DNA from: a virus
Length of the DNA: 26,284 nt
Reading direction: 5' to 3' (one strand)
IMG/VR virus record: IMGVR_UViG_3300009526_001889
Coordinates: 1 to 26,284 of that record
Each line of letters starts with the position of its first letter. Position 1 is the first letter of the stretch. Below, piece after piece: positions 1,695 to 11,119 of the stretch. The notes under the pieces are model-generated. The model made no database searches and was not told where the DNA came from. It saw only the letters and a program-made list of their open reading frames with translations. Made by a program: the position numbers and the translations under genes.

Positions 1695-3944
1695 TTAGGC
1701 AATGTTTTCAATGAATTTGTTAAGTAATTGACGATTTAGTGTCTTTTTTGTGGCGTGTTTAAGGAATTCACGGGCCATTCCGGCAGATTTCATATTCTCT
1801 TTAAACTCATAATCAGATGATTCTTGAACATTTTCACCTCTAGGCAAAATATAAAATTCATCATATCCAGCAACTTTGCAAACTGACACTTTATCTTTTG
1901 ATAATTGTCTTTGAATTTTTGCAATTTGAGCATGGTCACTATCACTGTATTGATTTAAATGATATGCATTACAAATAACATTTAAAGGAACTTTTCCCTT
2001 TTTACCTGAACCTGCAATGAAGAAACCTAAAACAGAAATATTAGGTAATTGTTTTCTAAGTAATTGTAAATATGTTTTTGTTTGTTCAGAACCATACATT
2101 GCGCCACTAACTACTGTTGCACCAGTCTCTGGGCAAGTAATATGAACATCTTTACTACCAACTGAGTATGAACCATGTGGTTGTAAATAATCTTCACCAG
2201 AAGCACCAGAACTATCAGACCACCACTCACTATGAGTATGACTTTCACCATCTGTCAAATAAACAAGATTTAATTTTTGAACTTTGTTTTCTGACATAAA
2301 CTTTTTAGTAGTTTTGTAAGTAGTTATGATTGCTTGATTAAGTGGTGTGCCACCAAGATTGAATCTACTAGGTATCCATGTACTATTAACATAACCATAT
2401 TCGTCTTCTAAATCAGAATAACTCCATTGATAAGTCATTGAAAGTAATTCTTTCATCATCCACATGGTTTCTTGTTTAGTCATTTTATTAGTAAAGAACT
2501 CAAATAAATTAAAACGACCAAAAGTTAAATCATTACGTACCTTGTCTTGTACTTCTTCGTGGTCATTATTTGTATTATATTTGTATCTATCTGAAAAGGC
2601 AAAAACTTGAAAAGGAATTTTTACTCTTTGGCAAAACCAAATTAAGTTGTAAAGTTGAATAAGTGTAAATCTCATATTACCTGCCATTGAACCTGACCAA
2701 TCAAGATACATAATCATACCGTGATTAGTAGAACCGGGTATCGTAGTAATCTTTGCGAATAAATCTTCATTGTATCGATAACTATGGAGTTTAGTCATAT
2801 CAAGACTACCTGTCTTTGAAACAGTGGCTCTTTTGTATGCATCAGCAGACTTTTTCATTTCAAACTCTTTAACCATATACTGAACAACTTTTTTGTTTTC
2901 ATTAAAGATTTTATCCATTTCTTTTTGAACTGCGTTATCAAAACTCTTACTATGATTGATAGTATAGTCTTCTTTGAGTTCTTGCATAATTCTTTTATAT
3001 GATAAAGTAATTTTTGACATTTTAAGACTTTTAGGAATATTTAAGTACATACGGTCTTTTGCTTTTTCATCAATATGTGCTTTCATGGCATCATCATAAG
3101 CACTATCGGTAACTGATTTTAAATCACCATTAGTAGGGGCACCACCTTTTGAAGCAGTAGTTGATTGTTGACTTTCTTGTTCTTCACCTTCGTCACCTTT
3201 ATCTTGGTCACTTGTTTGAGTACCGTTAGAACTTTCTTCATCATCATCTTGAGATTTTGACTTGGATGAACTATCTTCACCTTCCTCGCCATCGTCTGAG
3301 CCATCGTCTGAGTTTTTTTGTTGTTGATTTTGTTGTTCACCATCATCGTCTTCTTTATCTACACCTGACATTGATTGTTGAGCATTATTATCTTGATTTT
3401 CTTTTTCTTGTTTTTCGTGAAACTCACAAAGTTTTGCCGCAAGACTAATTACATCTTCTGGTGTTTTACATTTTGAAACTTCTTCGATAAGTAATTTTTC
3501 TTCTGGTGAAACATCACCAAGAAGACCTGTCTTGTAAAAGATATTAATTTTATCAATGATATTAAGTTTTGAGATATCTTTATTATCTATACCAAAGAAA
3601 TTTTTCTTTAATAACTCTTTATAACCTTTTTGAAAGTTTTTAACAGAACCGGGGTATTTCTTTTGAAACATTTTTTCGATACGTGCATCTTCGATTACGT
3701 TAACAACACCATGGTCAATACCTTGATGATGAATTGCATCTAACATATCTAGAGGTGTATATAATGCATGACCAACTTCATGACAAACGAACATGTCATA
3801 AACATCGTTACTCATTTCTTCTTTGAAAATTGGTAAAACTAATTCTCTTGATTTAACATCAAAAGAAGCAGTCTGTGCTTTTTTGTGAACAACGTAAACG
3901 TTTTCTTCAGCAAGTAGTTTCGCAATAGTAGATTTTTTAGTCAT
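1695..3944 (-). CDS. cobT: CobT/NorD-like VWA protein with HEVGH zincin-like motif
   Basis: A 749-aa protein in three parts. The N-terminal domain has HEVGH (55-59) followed by NVIEDARIE (82-90); HExxH plus a downstream Glu-rich helix resembles a gluzincin metalloprotease site, while EDARIE is also typical of CobT/NorD proteins. A low-complexity acidic linker (about 180-265, rich in D, E, S, Q) follows. The C-terminal VWA domain has a full MIDAS: DWSGS (415-419), Thr in GGTPL (531-535) and TDGES (564-568). It is upstream of the CobS-like AAA+ ATPase, with which such proteins normally work as a metal-dependent substrate adaptor. The ATG has GAGG upstream. Calling it a cobaltochelatase subunit is the usual label; the HExxH suggests it may be or derive from a protease. 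Confidence 0.8.
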   Translation of the reverse strand: MTKKSTIAKLLAEENVYVVHKKAQTASFDVKSRELVLPIFKEEMSNDVYDMFVCHEVGHALYTPLDMLDAIHHQGIDHGVVNVIEDARIEKMFQKKYPGSVKNFQKGYKELLKKNFFGIDNKDISKLNIIDKINIFYKTGLLGDVSPEEKLLIEEVSKCKTPEDVISLAAKLCEFHEKQEKENQDNNAQQSMSGVDKEDDDGEQQNQQQKNSDDGSDDGEEGEDSSSKSKSQDDDEESSNGTQTSDQDKGDEGEEQESQQSTTASKGGAPTNGDLKSVTDSAYDDAMKAHIDEKAKDRMYLNIPKSLKMSKITLSYKRIMQELKEDYTINHSKSFDNAVQKEMDKIFNENKKVVQYMVKEFEMKKSADAYKRATVSKTGSLDMTKLHSYRYNEDLFAKITTIPGSTNHGMIMYLDWSGSMAGNMRFTLIQLYNLIWFCQRVKIPFQVFAFSDRYKYNTNNDHEEVQDKVRNDLTFGRFNLFEFFTNKMTKQETMWMMKELLSMTYQWSYSDLEDEYGYVNSTWIPSRFNLGGTPLNQAIITTYKTTKKFMSENKVQKLNLVYLTDGESHTHSEWWSDSSGASGEDYLQPHGSYSVGSKDVHITCPETGATVVSGAMYGSEQTKTYLQLLRKQLPNISVLGFFIAGSGKKGKVPLNVICNAYHLNQYSDSDHAQIAKIQRQLSKDKVSVCKVAGYDEFYILPRGENVQESSDYEFKENMKSAGMAREFLKHATKKTLNRQLLNKFIENIA

Positions 3945-4011: not shown

Positions 4012-5157
4012 TTAAAGGTGGTCGTTACCGTAATTCTTCCATATGTCAAAAACCTCAATATTTTCGGGCGTTTCATCACTTGGCCAAGATTTGAACAATA
4101 TGTCGCACCCTGTTTTTGCGTTGATTTTTACTATTTTTCCACCTAATTCTTTAATATAGTGTTGGATTAATAGGATATAACTGCCGTCTTCGTTCTTAAC
4201 ACCCTCTTTAAACCCTGTACTAGTAAATGCAACTTTAAGTGGTTGAACCTTACCTGACGGGTCTTGAAGCACTCTTCTTGCGACTGCTTCTGCTTGTTTT
4301 TCTCTGACAATCATTGTGTTGCCAAAATAATCATAAGTCATGTCTAATTTCTTAGTCAACCAACTTAATGCAATATTATCTCTAGGGTGACAACTTCCAC
4401 CATCACCTAAACCTGGTTTCATGTATTTTGGACTTATTAATCTATGAGTACACTTTGACAGTACATCGCAAACAAAATTTGCATCTGCATTTTTCATTTT
4501 ATCTGCTGCATGTTGAATCATGTTTACAAAGTTAATTTTTTGAGTAATGAAAGTATTATAGAATACTTTAATCATTTCTGCTTCTTTAAAGTTACATATT
4601 TGAATTCTTGGATTGTTTTCTGCGATTGTCTTATAGAAATCGATTAATATCTTTGGTCTATAATTTGGTCTTTCGCCATTTGAACCATCTCCACCATTTC
4701 TGTCTGCACCAATTACAAACAACTCAGGATTTTTGAAATCCCATGCAACGGTTCCTTGTGCTATGAAAAATGGACTATAAACAAAATCGGCATCTGTTAT
4801 AAGGTCTCTAAGTTTATTATCAATTGTCGTAGGTATTACATTTGAAATAAGAACAATCAATTGTGGTTTCTTTACGAACTTATTTAATTCAGATAGTGTT
4901 TCTTCAACTGCTGAATAATCGAAATCTTTTGCTGGTAAATCAGAGGTAGGAGTTTCTCCTCCATAACCATCTTCATGTGGTGTTGGTACTGAAACAAAGA
5001 TAATTTCTCTATCACTTATTGCTTCAAACAAATTTTTACGACAAATCGCAAGATTACTTACTTTTGGGTCGTACCCTGTTACATCGTGACCTTTTTCATA
5101 CGCCACATCACTGCATGGCTTTACTAGTTTTCCTAAACCAACAAATCCTACTTTCAT
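4012..5157 (-). CDS. UDP-glucose/GDP-mannose 6-dehydrogenase family protein
   Basis: A 381-aa protein of the nucleotide-sugar dehydrogenase family, which oxidises C6 of an NDP-sugar to a uronate with two NAD+. The N-terminal Rossmann domain opens MKVGFVGLGKLVKP, giving GxG but Val where the third glycine usually lies. SVPTP (56-60) follows. The central helix has KEAEMIKVFYNTF (191-203), carrying the conserved Lys and Asn. The active-site segment MKPGLGDGGSCHPRD (246-260) contains the catalytic Cys256. At 381 residues it is a little shorter than the usual 390-450, with a reduced C-terminal domain. It ends the accessory block and has its own AGGAG site. The substrate cannot be told from sequence. 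Confidence 0.85.
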   Translation of the reverse strand: MKVGFVGLGKLVKPCSDVAYEKGHDVTGYDPKVSNLAICRKNLFEAISDREIIFVSVPTPHEDGYGGETPTSDLPAKDFDYSAVEETLSELNKFVKKPQLIVLISNVIPTTIDNKLRDLITDADFVYSPFFIAQGTVAWDFKNPELFVIGADRNGGDGSNGERPNYRPKILIDFYKTIAENNPRIQICNFKEAEMIKVFYNTFITQKINFVNMIQHAADKMKNADANFVCDVLSKCTHRLISPKYMKPGLGDGGSCHPRDNIALSWLTKKLDMTYDYFGNTMIVREKQAEAVARRVLQDPSGKVQPLKVAFTSTGFKEGVKNEDGSYILLIQHYIKELGGKIVKINAKTGCDILFKSWPSDETPENIEVFDIWKNYGNDHL

Positions 5158-5222: not shown

Positions 5223-6026
5223 TTATAGTGCAATATCAAGTTCTTTATAGATAAATTTCATAATATTTCTTTGAGATTCAGCATTTGGATGTGCATCTAT
5301 TCCACTAATTCTTTCATATTGACCTGCTCGTTCTAAAAAGTTTATCAGATGAAATCCACCTAATTCATTAAAACACGGCCATCCCATAAATGTATCTTCT
5401 TTTATCTGTAAAGATAATGGGTTCTTTATTAATTGTTCCATAGATTCTTTTTTAAACAACTTTGCTTCTTTATCATGTTCAAAGTAATTTGACATAGGAT
5501 TTAACATTTGAAACATTTGTAATTTTATATTTCTAGATTCGCAAATACATTGTAATGAATAAAACAATTGTAAATTCTTATTAATAATTTGTTTAGGTGT
5601 TGGATACTCACTAGAAAAAGTATTTAGATACCATTGATTTAAATATTCGTAATCAAAAACTTCTCTATCAAGTTTTTTATCTATCACATCTTTTCGTCTT
5701 GGTACAAGTGTTCTCCATTCAGGACCTCTTCCTTCGGACGGAAAGGGTCCAATACAGCAATCATCTTTATGTTTAATCATAAAATCTTGTCTTGTCCACT
5801 CTGTCCAACCAACTATTACATAATCAATTTTATCGTGTTTAGATATTTCAGAAACAACTCTATTAAAGATTATTTCGTTTCCAATACCACATATTGCAAG
5901 ATTGATAACATTAGTATTTGTTTTTTCAGAAAGTAACTCTGGCCACATTTTAAATTCAAGAGGCATTGGTTGTGCTGACTTTGGTTGTTCTTTATCTGTA
6001 AAACTGCAACCACCTACAATAATCAT
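5223..6026 (-). CDS. SGNH/GDSL-like protein, copy 1
   Basis: A 267-aa protein with an SGNH-hydrolase-like layout. Block I is GGCSFT with the nucleophile candidate Ser8 (Cys replaces the usual Asp of GDS). NLAICGIGNE (42-51) fits blocks II/III, VIVGWTEWTRQ follows, and DAHP (244-247) supplies the block V Asp-His pair. Members of this superfamily remove or add acyl groups, often on glycans; the exact activity is not predictable. It overlaps the upstream paralogue by an ATGA, so the pair is translationally coupled, and AGGAA lies upstream of the ATG. With a carbamoyltransferase and a sugar dehydrogenase beside it, a role in glycan decoration is the best inference. Confidence 0.65.
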   Translation of the reverse strand: MIIVGGCSFTDKEQPKSAQPMPLEFKMWPELLSEKTNTNVINLAICGIGNEIIFNRVVSEISKHDKIDYVIVGWTEWTRQDFMIKHKDDCCIGPFPSEGRGPEWRTLVPRRKDVIDKKLDREVFDYEYLNQWYLNTFSSEYPTPKQIINKNLQLFYSLQCICESRNIKLQMFQMLNPMSNYFEHDKEAKLFKKESMEQLIKNPLSLQIKEDTFMGWPCFNELGGFHLINFLERAGQYERISGIDAHPNAESQRNIMKFIYKELDIAL

Positions 6027-6733
6027 ATGTTATTTCCTAATATTTTTGCAAATTCTTTATGTGCTTTTGAAGTTGGATGAGCATCTGATGTATGATAAGA
6101 CTTATCATTTTTTTTGTTCCATGATTGAAGAGAAAATCCACCAACTTCTTTCATAAAAGGAAACCCTATTAAAGTACCATTATCCACAGTATCAAATCTA
6201 GGATGATTCATAACATGTTTGATGAACTCCATGTCATCAAAAATATTTGGTAAAGGATTTAATGCTGCAAAAATTTTATATGGTATTCCTATTTTTTCTA
6301 AAACAGATTGCATAGTTATAATTTGAGTATAAAATTTATATACCATTTTTTTAGTTCTAGGGTCGTAGTCTCTTATCATTTTTCCATTTAAAAGATTTCT
6401 TGTTATTTCCGTCATACCAATAACAACTAGACCATCTTTACTAAATGATAACAAATCATAATCGTCAATAATCTTTTGTATAATATGTTCATTTGAAGTA
6501 CCATCTTGCCCATGATTAACAACAGGTGTTTCTAATATTTCACCAAGATATTCTGGCCAACATTTTTGTATAACTCTTACATAGTTTGTAATATTACGTA
6601 ATTCGCCCAATCGTGGTATTTCAGTATCCTCATCAAAAATTGTTTGTGACAGAGAACTAACTGCTACATCAGTTTCATATTCATAGTGTGTAAAACTACA
6701 ACCATATGTAAATAATCTAGAATACTTTGACAT
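6023..6733 (-). CDS. SGNH/GDSL-like protein, copy 2
   Basis: A 236-aa paralogue of the next gene. It begins MSKYSRLFTYGCSFTHYEYE with candidate Ser13, then has NHGQDGTSNEHIIQ, VVIGMTEITRN and DAHPTSKAHKEFA (Asp217, His219), so the same SGNH elements appear in the same order. The ATG at 6733 was chosen because AAAGGAA lies 7 nt upstream; an in-frame TTG at 6748 has no such site. The 5' end overlaps the carbamoyltransferase by 17 nt. Retention of both catalytic-type positions in the two copies suggests both are active. No signal peptide is visible, so it likely acts in the cytoplasm. Confidence 0.65.
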   Translation of the reverse strand: MSKYSRLFTYGCSFTHYEYETDVAVSSLSQTIFDEDTEIPRLGELRNITNYVRVIQKCWPEYLGEILETPVVNHGQDGTSNEHIIQKIIDDYDLLSFSKDGLVVIGMTEITRNLLNGKMIRDYDPRTKKMVYKFYTQIITMQSVLEKIGIPYKIFAALNPLPNIFDDMEFIKHVMNHPRFDTVDNGTLIGFPFMKEVGGFSLQSWNKKNDKSYHTSDAHPTSKAHKEFAKILGNNI

Positions 6734-8039
6734 TATATTTCCTTTCAAAATTTAACGCATCTGACCATGTATTAACTATTGGTTGTCCTTTAATATTCAA
6801 AGAAGTGTTTAAAAGCATTGGACAACCTGTTTTAGCATAGAATTCTTCCAATATAAGGCGGGCTACAGAGGTATTTGTTTGTTCTACGACTTGTACTCTG
6901 GCAGTACCATCAATATGCGTTACTGAACTATAATCATGCATTGCTTTTGATACAAACTGCATATATCTATTCTTTCGTCCTTTAAAGTAGTCATCAAAAT
7001 GCTCCTCTAAAATCATAGGTGCAAACGGACGATATTTCTGTCTTTGTTTAATAGTATTAACTGTATCCTTTACATTGTATCTAGGGTCTGCAATTAATGA
7101 ACGATTACCTAATGCTCTTGGGCCAAACTCTGCACGACCATTAGCAATACCACAATACTTGTGTTTTAATAAATGTTCAACAACTTCTTTTGGGTTAACA
7201 TACTGATTAATATTATAACCAAGATACGGATGTTCCCAATCCAATCTTATACCATTAACTAATGCAGCTGCTCCTAACGATGAACCTGCATCACCAGGTG
7301 AAGGCATAATCCATATGTTATAATAATCTAAAAGTTTACTATTGGCAACACAATTTAAAGCACATCCACCTGCTAGTATTAAATTTTTCTTTGTTGTGTA
7401 TCTTAACAATTCTTTTAATTTTGTTTCATACAAATTCTGAATTGATGCAGCCAAATCTTCAGGTCTTGCATTTGGTAAAATGTTACCAACACCTCTGTGA
7501 TTATTTTGTTCTAACAAATATTCTAAATCGTATTTGGGTTCACCGAATGCAGCCATACCCATAGTAATATATTCTTCTTCATTTGGTTTCAATCCTAATC
7601 TTTGTGTAATCGCTGAATATAGTAATCCAAGTGAATAAGGATACCTAAATGATTTTATTTTTTTCATATTATCCCAAATGGTAATTGTTTCCCATTCACC
7701 TATGGCATCTATGACAATAATATTACAATCATGAAAAGGCGCCGTTAAATAACCTGCGGCTGCATGAGTTTGATGATGTCTAAAATAATAATCATATTTT
7801 CTTTCAGGCCATTCCATACCTTGACCTGCAAAAACTCTTCTAGTGTTTTTCCAAAATGGTGATTCGTAATATGCAATGTTATCGTAAGTGTGAGGTAATT
7901 GTTTTAATGATATCCATTTATCATTTTTAACTCGACTGTATCTTTCACTATGCGATGCATGTAAAATCTTTTTTCCTTCTAACACAGTTACACCTGCATC
8001 ATGAAATCCCTCTGATACACCGACATTAATCATCTTCAT
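6717..8039 (-). CDS. O-carbamoyltransferase of the NodU/CmcH/TobZ family
   Basis: A 440-aa enzyme expected to move a carbamoyl group from carbamoyl phosphate, through an adenylate, to a hydroxyl on a sugar or other acceptor. The Kae1-like N-domain has FRHHQTHAAAGYLTAPF (86-102, metal-binding His candidates), GGCALNCVANSKL (224-236) and PSPGDAGSSLGAA (246-258). The C-domain has GRAEFGPRALGNRSLIADPR (301-320), KYRPFAPMI (335-343) and LNTSLNIKGQPIV (410-422). All family signature blocks are present, although the protein is shorter than TobZ/NodU (about 560). It overlaps both neighbours. Some phage members carbamoylate 5-hydroxymethylcytosine in DNA, so the acceptor could be DNA as well as glycan. 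Family is sure, acceptor unknown. Confidence 0.93.
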   Translation of the reverse strand: MKMINVGVSEGFHDAGVTVLEGKKILHASHSERYSRVKNDKWISLKQLPHTYDNIAYYESPFWKNTRRVFAGQGMEWPERKYDYYFRHHQTHAAAGYLTAPFHDCNIIVIDAIGEWETITIWDNMKKIKSFRYPYSLGLLYSAITQRLGLKPNEEEYITMGMAAFGEPKYDLEYLLEQNNHRGVGNILPNARPEDLAASIQNLYETKLKELLRYTTKKNLILAGGCALNCVANSKLLDYYNIWIMPSPGDAGSSLGAAALVNGIRLDWEHPYLGYNINQYVNPKEVVEHLLKHKYCGIANGRAEFGPRALGNRSLIADPRYNVKDTVNTIKQRQKYRPFAPMILEEHFDDYFKGRKNRYMQFVSKAMHDYSSVTHIDGTARVQVVEQTNTSVARLILEEFYAKTGCPMLLNTSLNIKGQPIVNTWSDALNFERKYNVKVF

Positions 8040-8358
8040 TTACCGTACAATATTTTTTACATTTGTAATAAGCATCATCATAGTTTTCCCATGATTGAGG
8101 TAGTGTTTCATCAAACCACTTTCCCTTGAGTATTTTACTTAAAGGGTTTTTGTATATATTGTACTCATCTTTATTGTCCATATACTTTTTCATGATATGT
8201 TTATTTTTTGATTCTTTTCCTTTATACAATTCCTCAATGTCTGTATTATCAAACTTGTATGCCATGTTACTTAAATAACAACATGGAAAAACTTGTCCGT
8301 CTGGGTTAACAATAACAAGTTCATCGTTTTTCCATTCACAACTAATACACTTACTCAT
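8026..8358 (-). CDS. SPASM-like iron-sulfur protein (split partner of radical SAM)
   Basis: A 110-aa cysteine-rich protein. CISC (residues 4-7), the segment VNPDGQVFPCCYLSN (18-32) and a C-terminal CKKYC follow the usual SPASM/twitch pattern, a domain that normally forms the C-terminal end of radical SAM enzymes and binds an auxiliary 4Fe-4S cluster. Here it is a separate gene, starting in an ATGA overlap with the stop of the radical SAM gene. Its 3' end overlaps the carbamoyltransferase by 14 nt. Either the enzyme works as two chains or a frameshift broke one gene; the clean overlap favours two chains. Confidence 0.75.
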   Translation of the reverse strand: MSKCISCEWKNDELVIVNPDGQVFPCCYLSNMAYKFDNTDIEELYKGKESKNKHIMKKYMDNKDEYNIYKNPLSKILKGKWFDETLPQSWENYDDAYYKCKKYCTVNEDD

Positions 8359-9008
8359 TTTCGTAAAACCTTTTCTTTTCCATTTTCATCAACAAATTCA
8401 AATGTATCACTTTCTCTAAATCTATTAGAATCAAAATGACGCCAATATTTTGCACCATTGTCTTTTGCAAGATTTTCAATCTCTTTAAGATAAGGTCGAT
8501 TGTGTTCAAAGACAACTGTTTGTGCCATTGGTGTTGACCATGTTTCAGATAGTGATTTCATATTACTTAATGTTTTTTCTAAATTAGTTTTTCTACGATA
8601 GTGACTATGCATCTCTTGATTGACACCATCAATATCAAAATACATTTTTAATCTCTTGCCACATAGTATACCAAGTTTCCAATAATAATCCTCATCTCTG
8701 ATAGAACCATTTGTTGTGATTTCTATTCTACAATTACTTTCATCAATAATATATTCACACATAGGATACAAATCTTTAAGCATCATTGGGTCACCCCAAG
8801 TTCCACAGAATTTAATTTCATCTAACTCTTCTAATGTTTCTTTTGGAAATGCTTTTTTAAAATCTTCTATTGACCACTGTACAAGTGGCAACCATTCAGC
8901 AGTTCCACAACCATTTGGATTAATTCTGTCGCATTGAGGACAACCTGCATTGCAAAAATTAGTTATTGATAAACTAATCTTTCTTATTGGTGTTTCGTTC
9001 CACTTCAT
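8355..9008 (-). CDS. Radical SAM protein lacking its own SPASM domain
   Basis: A 217-aa radical SAM enzyme. SITNFCNAGCPQCDR holds the CxxxCxxC cluster motif (Cys19, Cys23, Cys26). EIKFCGTWGDPMM takes the place of the usual GGEP strand, followed by EITTNGS and FDIDG, all typical of the partial TIM barrel. The start at 9008 was chosen because GAGG lies 7 nt upstream; an ATG 24 nt earlier at 9032 is weaker. The protein ends where SPASM normally follows, and a SPASM protein begins in a 4-nt overlap. The substrate is unknown; its neighbours suggest modification of a sugar or small molecule rather than peptide maturation, as no precursor peptide is evident apart from the tiny ORF upstream. Confidence 0.85.
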   Translation of the reverse strand: MKWNETPIRKISLSITNFCNAGCPQCDRINPNGCGTAEWLPLVQWSIEDFKKAFPKETLEELDEIKFCGTWGDPMMLKDLYPMCEYIIDESNCRIEITTNGSIRDEDYYWKLGILCGKRLKMYFDIDGVNQEMHSHYRRKTNLEKTLSNMKSLSETWSTPMAQTVVFEHNRPYLKEIENLAKDNGAKYWRHFDSNRFRESDTFEFVDENGKEKVLRK

Positions 9009-9117
9009 GTTTATCCTCGTAAATATATACATCAGACTTTTCTCTAGGTTTAAAGTAACCTAAAAAAGTATTCCAATATAATAAAGTATATAATTTTATT
9101 CTTTTAAGTTTTTTCAT
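8974..9117 (-). CDS. Hypothetical 47-aa basic protein downstream of gp46
   Basis: A 47-codon ORF starting MKKLKRIKLYTLLYWNTFLG and containing YFKPREKSDVYIYEDKHEVE. Its ATG overlaps the gp46 stop as ATGA, the same arrangement seen at other junctions of this operon, and its 3' end overlaps the radical SAM gene by 35 nt. The N-terminus is basic and hydrophobic, the C-terminus charged. No family is recognised. Its position directly before a radical SAM/SPASM pair makes a substrate peptide formally possible, but nothing in it looks like a known precursor. Confidence 0.6.
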   Translation of the reverse strand: MKKLKRIKLYTLLYWNTFLGYFKPREKSDVYIYEDKHEVERNTNKKD

Positions 9118-10847
9118 GTTATTGCACTGTAACTGTTATTGTAATTAACTCTACTAAAGTTTTGTACTTTTTCAAACTTAATACTATTACTAAATTTATC
9201 TGCAAGTTGGTCACCTTTATGACTAATTACAAATATGTTTTCATTGTCTAGTGTGTTTAGTATTCTTAGAAACTCATCTGTACCTTGGCCATCTAATGAA
9301 CTGTCAAATATCTCATCTAGAATTAATAGATTTGTATTTGTTGAATTTTTCATTTTAGCAATTGCTCTCCAAGTAAACAATAATGCTAAATCAATTCTTA
9401 GTTTTTCACCTTCACTAAATGAAGCATAGTTAAAGTTATCTCTAAATCTAGACTTAATCGTTTCATTAAAATTTTCATCTAAATTAAAGTTTACATAAAA
9501 CTCCATAGACATAAGATACTTATTAATTAACTGATTCATAATTGGCAAGTATTGTTTAATAATTTTTGTTTTAATACCTGAATCATCTAACATATCTCTG
9601 ACTGCATGGGTATATGTTTTTTCTTCCTTCTTTTCACTTCTTGTTTGTTCAACACCTTTACATTCGTTTTTCATATTAGAAAGTTTATCTAAGTCTGTTT
9701 GTGATACTGAACCTTTTTCAAATGATGATATTTCATCTGATAATCTATTATTATACTTTTCTAATTCAGTAATTGCTGAAGTTAACTCTGCCCTTTGAAC
9801 TTCATTATCACGAATTTTTTTCATTATCGCATCAATGTCTTCTATTCGTTTATCAACTTCAAGAAGCTCATCTTTAAGTTTTGTTGCTCCGTCAAGTATA
9901 TCTTGTATTTTATTTTGTTTGTCTTCTACCATTGTCTCTTTATGAGATGTTTCAATATCTTGTTCACAGGTAGGACAACTTTCATTGTCTTTAAAAAACT
10001 CCATATCTTTTGTTAACTGTTTATGTTTTTCTGTTATTGTTGCTCTAATGTTACTTAACTTTTTTAATTTGTTTGTAACTTTATCTTTATCAGTAATACT
10101 TTCGTGTAAGTCATCTGAAACTGTTTTTAAATCATCGACTTGAGTATTTCTTTCATTTAATACAGTTTCATTTTTGCTAAACTCATTTTCTTTTTCAGAA
10201 ACAATTTGTTCTTTGTTTGCTTTCATGTCATCAATATAATTTTGTTGCATAGCAATTTTTTCACAAGCAAGTTCAAACTGATAATCTAAATCTTTTATAT
10301 CATCTGTTATTTCTTTAATCTTTTGTTTAAGTAAAAACCCCATAAGAGAAAATATTTTAATATCAAGAATTTCTTCAACAACTTCTCTACGATGACTTGC
10401 CTTTAATTGCATAAAAGGAATAAATGTCGATGAACCTAAAATAACAACCTGAGTAAATGAACGGAAGTTTAATCGTAATACATTTTGTTCTAAAAACTTT
10501 TGATAGTCTCTAGAGTTTGCATCTTGATTAACAAGAAGATTGTCACAATAGATTTCAAATATATTTGGTTTAATACCTCTTATGATTTTCCACTCTTTAG
10601 TACCTATACTAAATTCTACTTCGACAACTGCTTCTCTATCATTAATAGTATTAACTAATTGTGATTTACTAATAACACGAAATGGTTTACCAAATAAACC
10701 AAAACACAATGCATCAAGAATAGTTGATTTGCCTGCACCATTTTCACCAATGATTAATGATGTTCTATTTTCGTCTAATTTTATTTCTGTAAATTGATTA
10801 CCTGTAGAAAGAAAGTTTTTCCAACGAACACAATTAAAATTAATCAT
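9114..10847 (-). CDS. gp46: gp46 recombination nuclease ATPase subunit (Rad50/SbcC-like)
   Basis: A 577-aa SMC-type ATPase that with gp47 forms the T4 end-resection nuclease needed for recombination-dependent replication and host DNA breakdown. Walker A GENGAGKS is at 34-41, followed by FGLFGKPFR as in T4. Long coiled coils flank a zinc hook CPTC (291-294). The signature FSEGEKLRIDLALLF and Walker B LLILDEIFDSSLD lie near the C-terminus. The start at 10847 matches the T4 start of the ATPase domain and has GGAG upstream; the frame is open for 39 further codons, but those lie in the membrane-protein gene. Both ends use ATGA overlaps. Confidence 0.95.
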   Translation of the reverse strand: MINFNCVRWKNFLSTGNQFTEIKLDENRTSLIIGENGAGKSTILDALCFGLFGKPFRVISKSQLVNTINDREAVVEVEFSIGTKEWKIIRGIKPNIFEIYCDNLLVNQDANSRDYQKFLEQNVLRLNFRSFTQVVILGSSTFIPFMQLKASHRREVVEEILDIKIFSLMGFLLKQKIKEITDDIKDLDYQFELACEKIAMQQNYIDDMKANKEQIVSEKENEFSKNETVLNERNTQVDDLKTVSDDLHESITDKDKVTNKLKKLSNIRATITEKHKQLTKDMEFFKDNESCPTCEQDIETSHKETMVEDKQNKIQDILDGATKLKDELLEVDKRIEDIDAIMKKIRDNEVQRAELTSAITELEKYNNRLSDEISSFEKGSVSQTDLDKLSNMKNECKGVEQTRSEKKEEKTYTHAVRDMLDDSGIKTKIIKQYLPIMNQLINKYLMSMEFYVNFNLDENFNETIKSRFRDNFNYASFSEGEKLRIDLALLFTWRAIAKMKNSTNTNLLILDEIFDSSLDGQGTDEFLRILNTLDNENIFVISHKGDQLADKFSNSIKFEKVQNFSRVNYNNSYSAIT

Positions 10848-11119
10848 ATAAACAATCTCCAAAGAGCAATAGTATTCATTGTAGTAAACCATACAGTTAG
10901 TACCATAATCCAAGCAGATTTTCTGTAATATGCTCCAAAGAAACCACTTACACTTCCTACCCAATAAAATGGCATAAAGATATCTGGTCTTGGTTCTAAT
11001 ACTGTAAATGTTAATATTGCACTACCAATCATAACACTAAATGCACTTAGCATTTCTAGATAAAATGCTGTCACGTTTGTTTTGTAACTATCAATCCAAA
11101 AGTTTCTAACTCTGTTCAT
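10844..11119 (-). CDS. Small three-helix membrane protein between gp47 and gp46
   Basis: A 91-aa protein with three predicted membrane spans: about 17-41 (ending in SAILTFTVL), 47-65 (FMPFYWVGSVSGFFGAYY) and 69-90 (AWIMVLTVWFTTMNTIALW). It overlaps gp47 and gp46 by ATGA at each end, so it is made in step with the nuclease subunits. No family is recognised. The position suggests a link to the nuclease or to membrane attachment of replication, but this rests on context only. Confidence 0.8.
   Translation of the reverse strand: MNRVRNFWIDSYKTNVTAFYLEMLSAFSVMIGSAILTFTVLEPRPDIFMPFYWVGSVSGFFGAYYRKSAWIMVLTVWFTTMNTIALWRLFI

Follow-up and report, generated by a model that had tools for sequence, protein, structure and literature searches.

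A compact class III carbamoyltransferase, encoded beside an SGNH-fold protein in a marine T4-like phage, probably acts on a sugar or sugar-like acceptor

Which molecule does a carbamoyltransferase carried by a phage modify? The window analyzed here, an entire virus record of 26,284 bases that represents a fragment of a genome, contains an open reading frame (ORF) at positions 6717-8039 on the minus strand. The original prediction described its product as an intact NodU/TobZ carbamoyltransferase with an open acceptor, either a glycan or hydroxymethylcytosine. In class III enzymes such as GdmN and TobZ, a C-terminal YrdC-like domain converts carbamoyl phosphate and ATP to carbamoyl-AMP, from which the carbamoyl group is passed to an acceptor hydroxyl by a Kae1-like domain that holds the iron. 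The ORF runs from ATG to stop without interruption and encodes a protein of 440 amino acids (CT). Both Pfam domains, Carbam_trans_C (1.5e-48) and Carbam_trans_N (2.3e-36), were matched over their cut-offs, and CT also matched phrog_1601, annotated as a Nol-like carbamoyltransferase (1.3e-81). The three signature blocks reported earlier (GRAEFGPRALGNRS, KYRPFAPMI, and LNTSLNIKGQP) were each found letter for letter in CT, and many of their residues are the same in every row of a 47-row alignment of relatives.

A structure model of CT built from 47 relatives had a mean pLDDT of 94.1 and showed a predicted Kae1-like plus YrdC-like fold. The model matched GdmN (Z = 42.1) and TobZ (Z = 41.0), within a range of Z = 40 to 42 over 432 to 435 residues for GdmN, TobZ, and NovN; when VtdB was included, the range was 38 to 42 over more than 430 residues. 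Using the residue roles described for GdmN (PMC9633730), we mapped the iron ligands H133, H137, D156, and D333 to H88, H92, D111, and D250 of CT, the general base H27 to H13, and Y82 to Y58, all of which were kept. With its domains, iron ligands, general-base His, and fold in place, CT is a complete class III (NodU/TobZ) carbamoyltransferase, confirming the earlier identification, and is ordinary within its superfamily. The kept catalytic residues and the fold match suggest that it is active as a carbamoyltransferase, as had been thought probable. CT is short because it is trimmed, relative to GdmN, between Tyr57 and His88 (31 residues versus 52), after Met160 (37 versus 65), and in the interdomain linker (51 versus 78). 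The region after Met160 is that of the acceptor-contacting loop 4' of GdmN. In one related locus (L066, 10001-11470), the CT gene was interrupted by an in-frame stop, so broken copies may occur in some phages.

The expectation that the host genome belongs to a T4-like phage was upheld. The window contains uvsY (Pfam), the order of its remaining core genes agrees with that of annotated relatives, and its gp23 is nearest, among isolates, to those of Methylophilales phage Melnitz (73% identity) and Pelagibacter phages Mosig (73%) and HTVC008M (70%), which are marine Kyanoviridae infecting methylotrophs and SAR11. CT is carried as cargo in a block of approximately 5 kb. The block is bordered on one side by a gp46-like recombination endonuclease subunit gene (9114-10964), assigned by position and neighbors as in relatives and probably annotated with too long a start, and on the other side by the phrog_459 peptidase (1695-3944; 2.6e-195) and CobS genes. 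In transcription order, the block encodes a radical SAM core protein of 225 amino acids with a CNAGCPQC motif (8355-9032; PF04055, 2.3e-9), a SPASM iron-sulfur domain protein of 110 amino acids (8026-8358; PF13186, 1.8e-6), CT, an SGNH/GDSL-fold protein resembling DUF6071 (SGNH protein 1; 6023-6733), a second SGNH/GDSL-like protein (SGNH protein 2; 5223-6026), and a UDP-glucose/GDP-mannose dehydrogenase-like nucleotide-sugar dehydrogenase (4012-5157; PF00984, 6e-19; PF03721, 2.5e-12; phrog_9148). All of these genes, including the borders given with coordinates, are on the minus strand. The ends of the first five block genes overlap, and the ATG of SGNH protein 1 overlaps the end of CT by 17 nucleotides. 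The order gp46-cargo-peptidase-CobS was also found in HTVC008M and S-SSM7; the slot is filled by three hypothetical genes in HTVC008M and by other genes in Melnitz.

Two features of the flanking cargo genes were also observed. The radical SAM core and SPASM domains (8026-9032) are two ORFs overlapping at ATGA and not one protein, and this split, with SPASM as a separate gene, is kept in most relatives of the viralA group that have them; in phage C48C1, the radical SAM and SPASM domains are fused in one protein encoded near its CT. In the dehydrogenase, the catalytic GDGGSCHPRD block is kept when compared across relatives. At positions 5118-5157, the window encodes GLGKLV where three relatives (L006-L008) have GLGKLG, placing Val for Gly in the GxGxxG NAD-binding motif; this is either a natural variant or a sequence error.

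We then compared CT with a phage member of the wider family that carbamoylates 5-hydroxymethylcytosine (5hmC), using the sequence from that study in our trees (PMC8670742; Yang et al. 2021). In a tree of 85 sequences, CT fell in a 44-row compact clade (SH-aLRT 100) that consisted of marine phage CTs, actinomycete CTs, and one Mesorhizobium CT, and the 5hmC carbamoyltransferase and its Xp15, Effie, and BF503P2 relatives formed their own clade with a support of 100. Both clades were recovered at 100/100 in a second, careful tree of 42 rows with AU tests. Phylogeny had been suggested as a way to tell a DNA-acting from a sugar-acting enzyme, and it placed CT outside the DNA-acting clade, since a position inside that clade was rejected (AU p = 0.0014). 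A sister grouping of the compact and DNA-acting clades survived the AU test (p = 0.30), so the two may share a deep origin. Individual residues gave the same division as the trees. The position of TobZ R423, named as a discriminating site (PMC8670742), is Arg in the window (R313) and in each of the 157 remaining compact and NodU-like rows, with Arg in 72 of 72 rows for the phage-compact set, whereas all four DNA-type rows have Thr. The equivalent of TobZ G421 is G311 in the window and Cys in three of the four DNA-type rows; thus, the departure at G421/R423 expected of a 5hmC carbamoyltransferase is absent from CT. In addition, the window residues R337, E115, and D377 are replaced in the DNA-type clade by Met, by Thr, Ser, or Asn, and by Tyr, Lys, or Thr, respectively. 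The TobZ W408 position was non-discriminating, being Ile or Val in compact and DNA-type rows alike. A helix motif on the acceptor side, E59-x4-K64-xx-R67 (E-x-P-x-x-K-x-x-R), is present in CT and most NodU-like enzymes and is missing from the 5hmC enzyme, NovN, and GdmN. By these trees and alignments, CT belongs to a distinct compact subfamily with members in phages, actinomycetes, and a Mesorhizobium. We found no characterized member of this subfamily here, so a sugar acceptor has to be read from the gene neighbors.

The most constant companion of the compact CTs in the viral loci counted was an SGNH gene. Of 81 viral CT genes, 58 are directly adjoined by one, compared with 71 of the 1063 other genes in these loci; as the loci are mutually related, these counts are descriptive. 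Beyond the phages, SGNH genes adjoin CT in L092, L093, L108, and L111 and in the Mesorhizobium locus (L094). Annotated DUF6071 neighbors of CT occur on the plasmids of Streptomyces Mg1 and S. goshikiensis and in Mesorhizobium, and a DUF6071/SGNH neighbor occurs likewise in S. hoynatensis and Nonomuraea. Whether the partner lies upstream or downstream of CT varies among lineages. These cellular neighbors and the variable side of the partner are independent support for the pairing. SGNH protein 1 has the GCSFT and DAHP motifs and the invariant residues G11, S13, N73, R112, and H219, which include the catalytic-set Ser and His. Its model matched GDSL esterases (best Foldseek E value, 3.1e-6), thioesterase I, and CE2 carbohydrate esterases. 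With the nucleophile block, the D-x-H block, and the predicted fold, it can be assigned as a putative SGNH/GDSL hydrolase. Its match to DUF6071 (PF19547) was 3.4e-5 and 24.0 bits, under the 27-bit cut-off, and its relatives in L111 and L112 exceeded that cut-off; DUF6071 was linked to GDSL lipase models in L078. Our search found no literature on DUF6071. SGNH protein 2 belongs to the same family by profile (3e-75) and has GCSFT and DAHPN motifs. A functional precedent exists in Pantoea, where pnp1B (SGNH) and pnp1D (NodU-type CT) are both required for the antibiotic PNP-1 (PMC4010436).

Direct action of CT on 5hmC, in DNA or as 5hmdCTP, would also need a source of the modified base. Because the window is the whole virus record, the presence of a dCMP hydroxymethylase elsewhere in the genome could be asked only of relatives; among the searched proteins of this genome fragment, no dCMP hydroxymethylase or other thymidylate synthase (TS)-family gene was recognized. 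A TS-family search found neither a TS nor a dCMP hydroxymethylase in the complete genomes of Melnitz, Mosig, and HTVC008M or in complete C48C1, which carries a relative of CT. A TS match was present in seven related records, and those readable at the site were of the Asn177 (dUMP) type. All three DNA-type genomes fetched had a TS-family match, one of which was annotated as dCMP hydroxymethylase. In two records (L071 and L072, from G003 and G001; 86479-88125), the thymidylate synthase was split by a long in-frame insert, leaving a 554-amino-acid open frame that matches the profile at 1-105 and 95-266; the insert is perhaps an intein. Although a phage enzyme from the broader family has this activity and the sister grouping was not rejected, the separate clade, the AU test, the differing residues, and the TS and hydroxymethylase searches led us to reject the 5hmC carbamoyltransferase as the main reading, and we consider it very unlikely. 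The original prediction was therefore borne out in its view of an active enzyme with an open acceptor, for which a sugar, a sugar-like molecule, or another small molecule are the candidates; hydroxymethylcytosine did not hold up as a real alternative.

A less direct link to DNA is that CT and the SGNH protein decorate a sugar attached to 5hmC, which would arise by C5-methylation, TET oxidation, and a TET-associated glycosyltransferase (TAGT, PF20691), yielding a carbamoylated, acyl-edited DNA glycan. Such a route has elements in this lineage. Melnitz has an HhaI-like C5-methyltransferase gene followed by a TET gene, another possible source of 5hmC, and C48C1 has a TET gene. In close relatives (G010, G012, and G028), a C5-methyltransferase gene lies near the DNA polymerase gene. 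At L197 (8000-10676), L200 (7144-9805), and L198 (9473-12319), the C5-cytosine methyltransferase adjoins the DNA polymerase in close relatives, and its flanking genes encode an Asn-synthase/QueC-like PP-loop protein and another methyltransferase. In the record of L030, CT and SGNH genes are followed by TET, nucleotidyltransferase, TAGT, and second SGNH genes within approximately 7 kb; downstream of the CT-SGNH pair (L199, 9505-14278), the genes for TET, nucleotidyltransferase/HAD, a cupin-like protein, TAGT, and SGNH stand in a row. Because of this cassette, carbamoylation of a DNA-bound sugar stays as a low-probability alternative. However, TAGT was found in only this one of 50 related records, TET in 2 of 30 (C48C1 and the record of L030), and other distinct TET loci had no CT in the available sequence; a systematic link to TET or DNA glycosylation was rejected on these grounds. 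CT and the C5-methyltransferase/TET route are also dissociated among the isolates: Mosig and HTVC008M have a CT, that of Mosig lying outside the compact kind in the 85-sequence tree, and TET, C5-methyltransferase, and TS were all not found in them, whereas Melnitz has the route and no CT was found in it.

As CT lies outside the DNA-cytosine-modifying group, a sugar or other small molecule is more likely to be decorated. Sugar-nucleotide or glycosyltransferase genes (dehydrogenase, GT8, epimerase, and DegT aminotransferase families) were present within 10 kb of CT in 45 of 79 viral loci, and the cassettes of the viralB and viralC groups contain GT8, epimerase, and DegT genes. The compact CTs of actinomycetes are near NRPS, P450, adenylation domain, and decarboxylase genes rather than glycan loci: the nearest cellular relatives stand beside NRPS/P450 (L108), an adenylation domain and a PLP decarboxylase (L111), and radical SAM (L112). 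A contig titled Chloroflexi, from a metagenome-assembled genome (L114), carries a compact CT with Trp halogenase, AMP-binding ligase, and aminotransferase-like genes and looks like a phage or mobile natural-product-like cassette. Given these natural-product settings, a small molecule other than a sugar is nearly as good a fit: CT would modify a natural-product-like molecule or peptide, possibly directed at the host, and the radical SAM/SPASM and SGNH proteins would act as tailoring enzymes. The Pantoea SGNH/NodU-type CT pair does make an antibiotic. We regard this as a possible but distinctly less probable reading, as the window cassette has a nucleotide-sugar dehydrogenase, the viralB and viralC cassettes have their sugar genes, and we found neither NRPS or halogenase genes nor an obvious precursor peptide in the window.

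We therefore favor, as probable, an active compact class III CT that shares a sugar or sugar-like acceptor of the cassette with the SGNH protein and is not a 5hmC carbamoyltransferase. The residues mapped from GdmN, the predicted fold, the clades, the acceptor-side motif, the SGNH adjacency, the sugar genes, and the Pantoea precedent all point in this direction. Against it count the 34 of 79 viral loci with no listed sugar genes in the available sequence, many of which are contig ends, and the Val in the GxGxxG motif of the dehydrogenase. By analogy with characterized enzymes, the YrdC-like domain of CT would use carbamoyl phosphate and ATP to form carbamoyl-AMP; His13 would deprotonate the acceptor hydroxyl, which would then be carbamoylated in the Kae1-like domain. 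The acceptor may be a sugar, which could be free, linked to a nucleotide, or part of a glycan, either at a surface or on the virion; it may also be a sugar-like small molecule on which the cassette acts. The nucleotide-sugar dehydrogenase would provide an oxidized sugar. The SGNH protein would work on the substrate of CT, either attaching or cleaving an ester there or taking off the carbamate.

Phage carbamoyltransferases thus fall in at least three groups: the DNA type with TS-family genes, the cyanophage Nol type, and the compact type with SGNH. Because the groups have different partners, the superfamily name alone misleads annotation. Cyanophage NodU-type carbamoyltransferases have been named aspartate carbamoyltransferase and assigned to pyrimidine synthesis (PMC10436341, PMC9146016), which is apparently a misannotation. 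An aspartate/ornithine-type enzyme for pyrimidine supply, as assumed for these cyanophage relatives, has almost no chance of explaining CT: its sequence and predicted fold are class III (Kae1-like plus YrdC-like), class I domains gave no Pfam match in it, and the PyrB type was ruled out by domain content and fold, making a pyrimidine-pathway role inapplicable to the window enzyme. The CT-SGNH unit, common to marine phages and actinomycetes, is defined and open to testing, and it may reveal how these phages change the surface chemistry of the host or the virion.

Finally, CT was compared with known systems. The cyanophage Nol CTs (P-SSM2, S-SSM5, and S-SSM7) belong to the same superfamily and also occur in T4-like phages, with that of S-SSM7 nearby, between uvsW and gp55; however, they lie outside the compact clade, have Ser at the Glu115 position, and had no SGNH partner that we found. 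The 5hmC carbamoyltransferase and its Xp15, Effie, and BF503P2 relatives (PMC8670742) have the superfamily chemistry and the iron site in common with CT but form another clade, carry Thr in place of R313 and Met in place of R337, and have a TS-family gene in each genome fetched. TobZ, GdmN, NovN, and VtdB share both domains, the four iron ligands, and the general-base His, but are approximately 560 to 700 amino acids long, compared with 440 for CT, and differ in the acceptor-side helix. The NodU/NolO-like enzymes have the E-x-P-x-x-K-x-x-R motif, Glu115, and Trp116 in common with CT, which is approximately 130 residues shorter, 30 to 34% identical, and placed in the separate, 100%-supported compact clade. 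The PNP-1 cluster of Pantoea is bacterial, and unlike the window cassette, it has no described radical SAM protein or sugar dehydrogenase; like the window, it has a CT together with an SGNH hydrolase, and in Pantoea the two serve a single pathway that needs both (PMC4010436).
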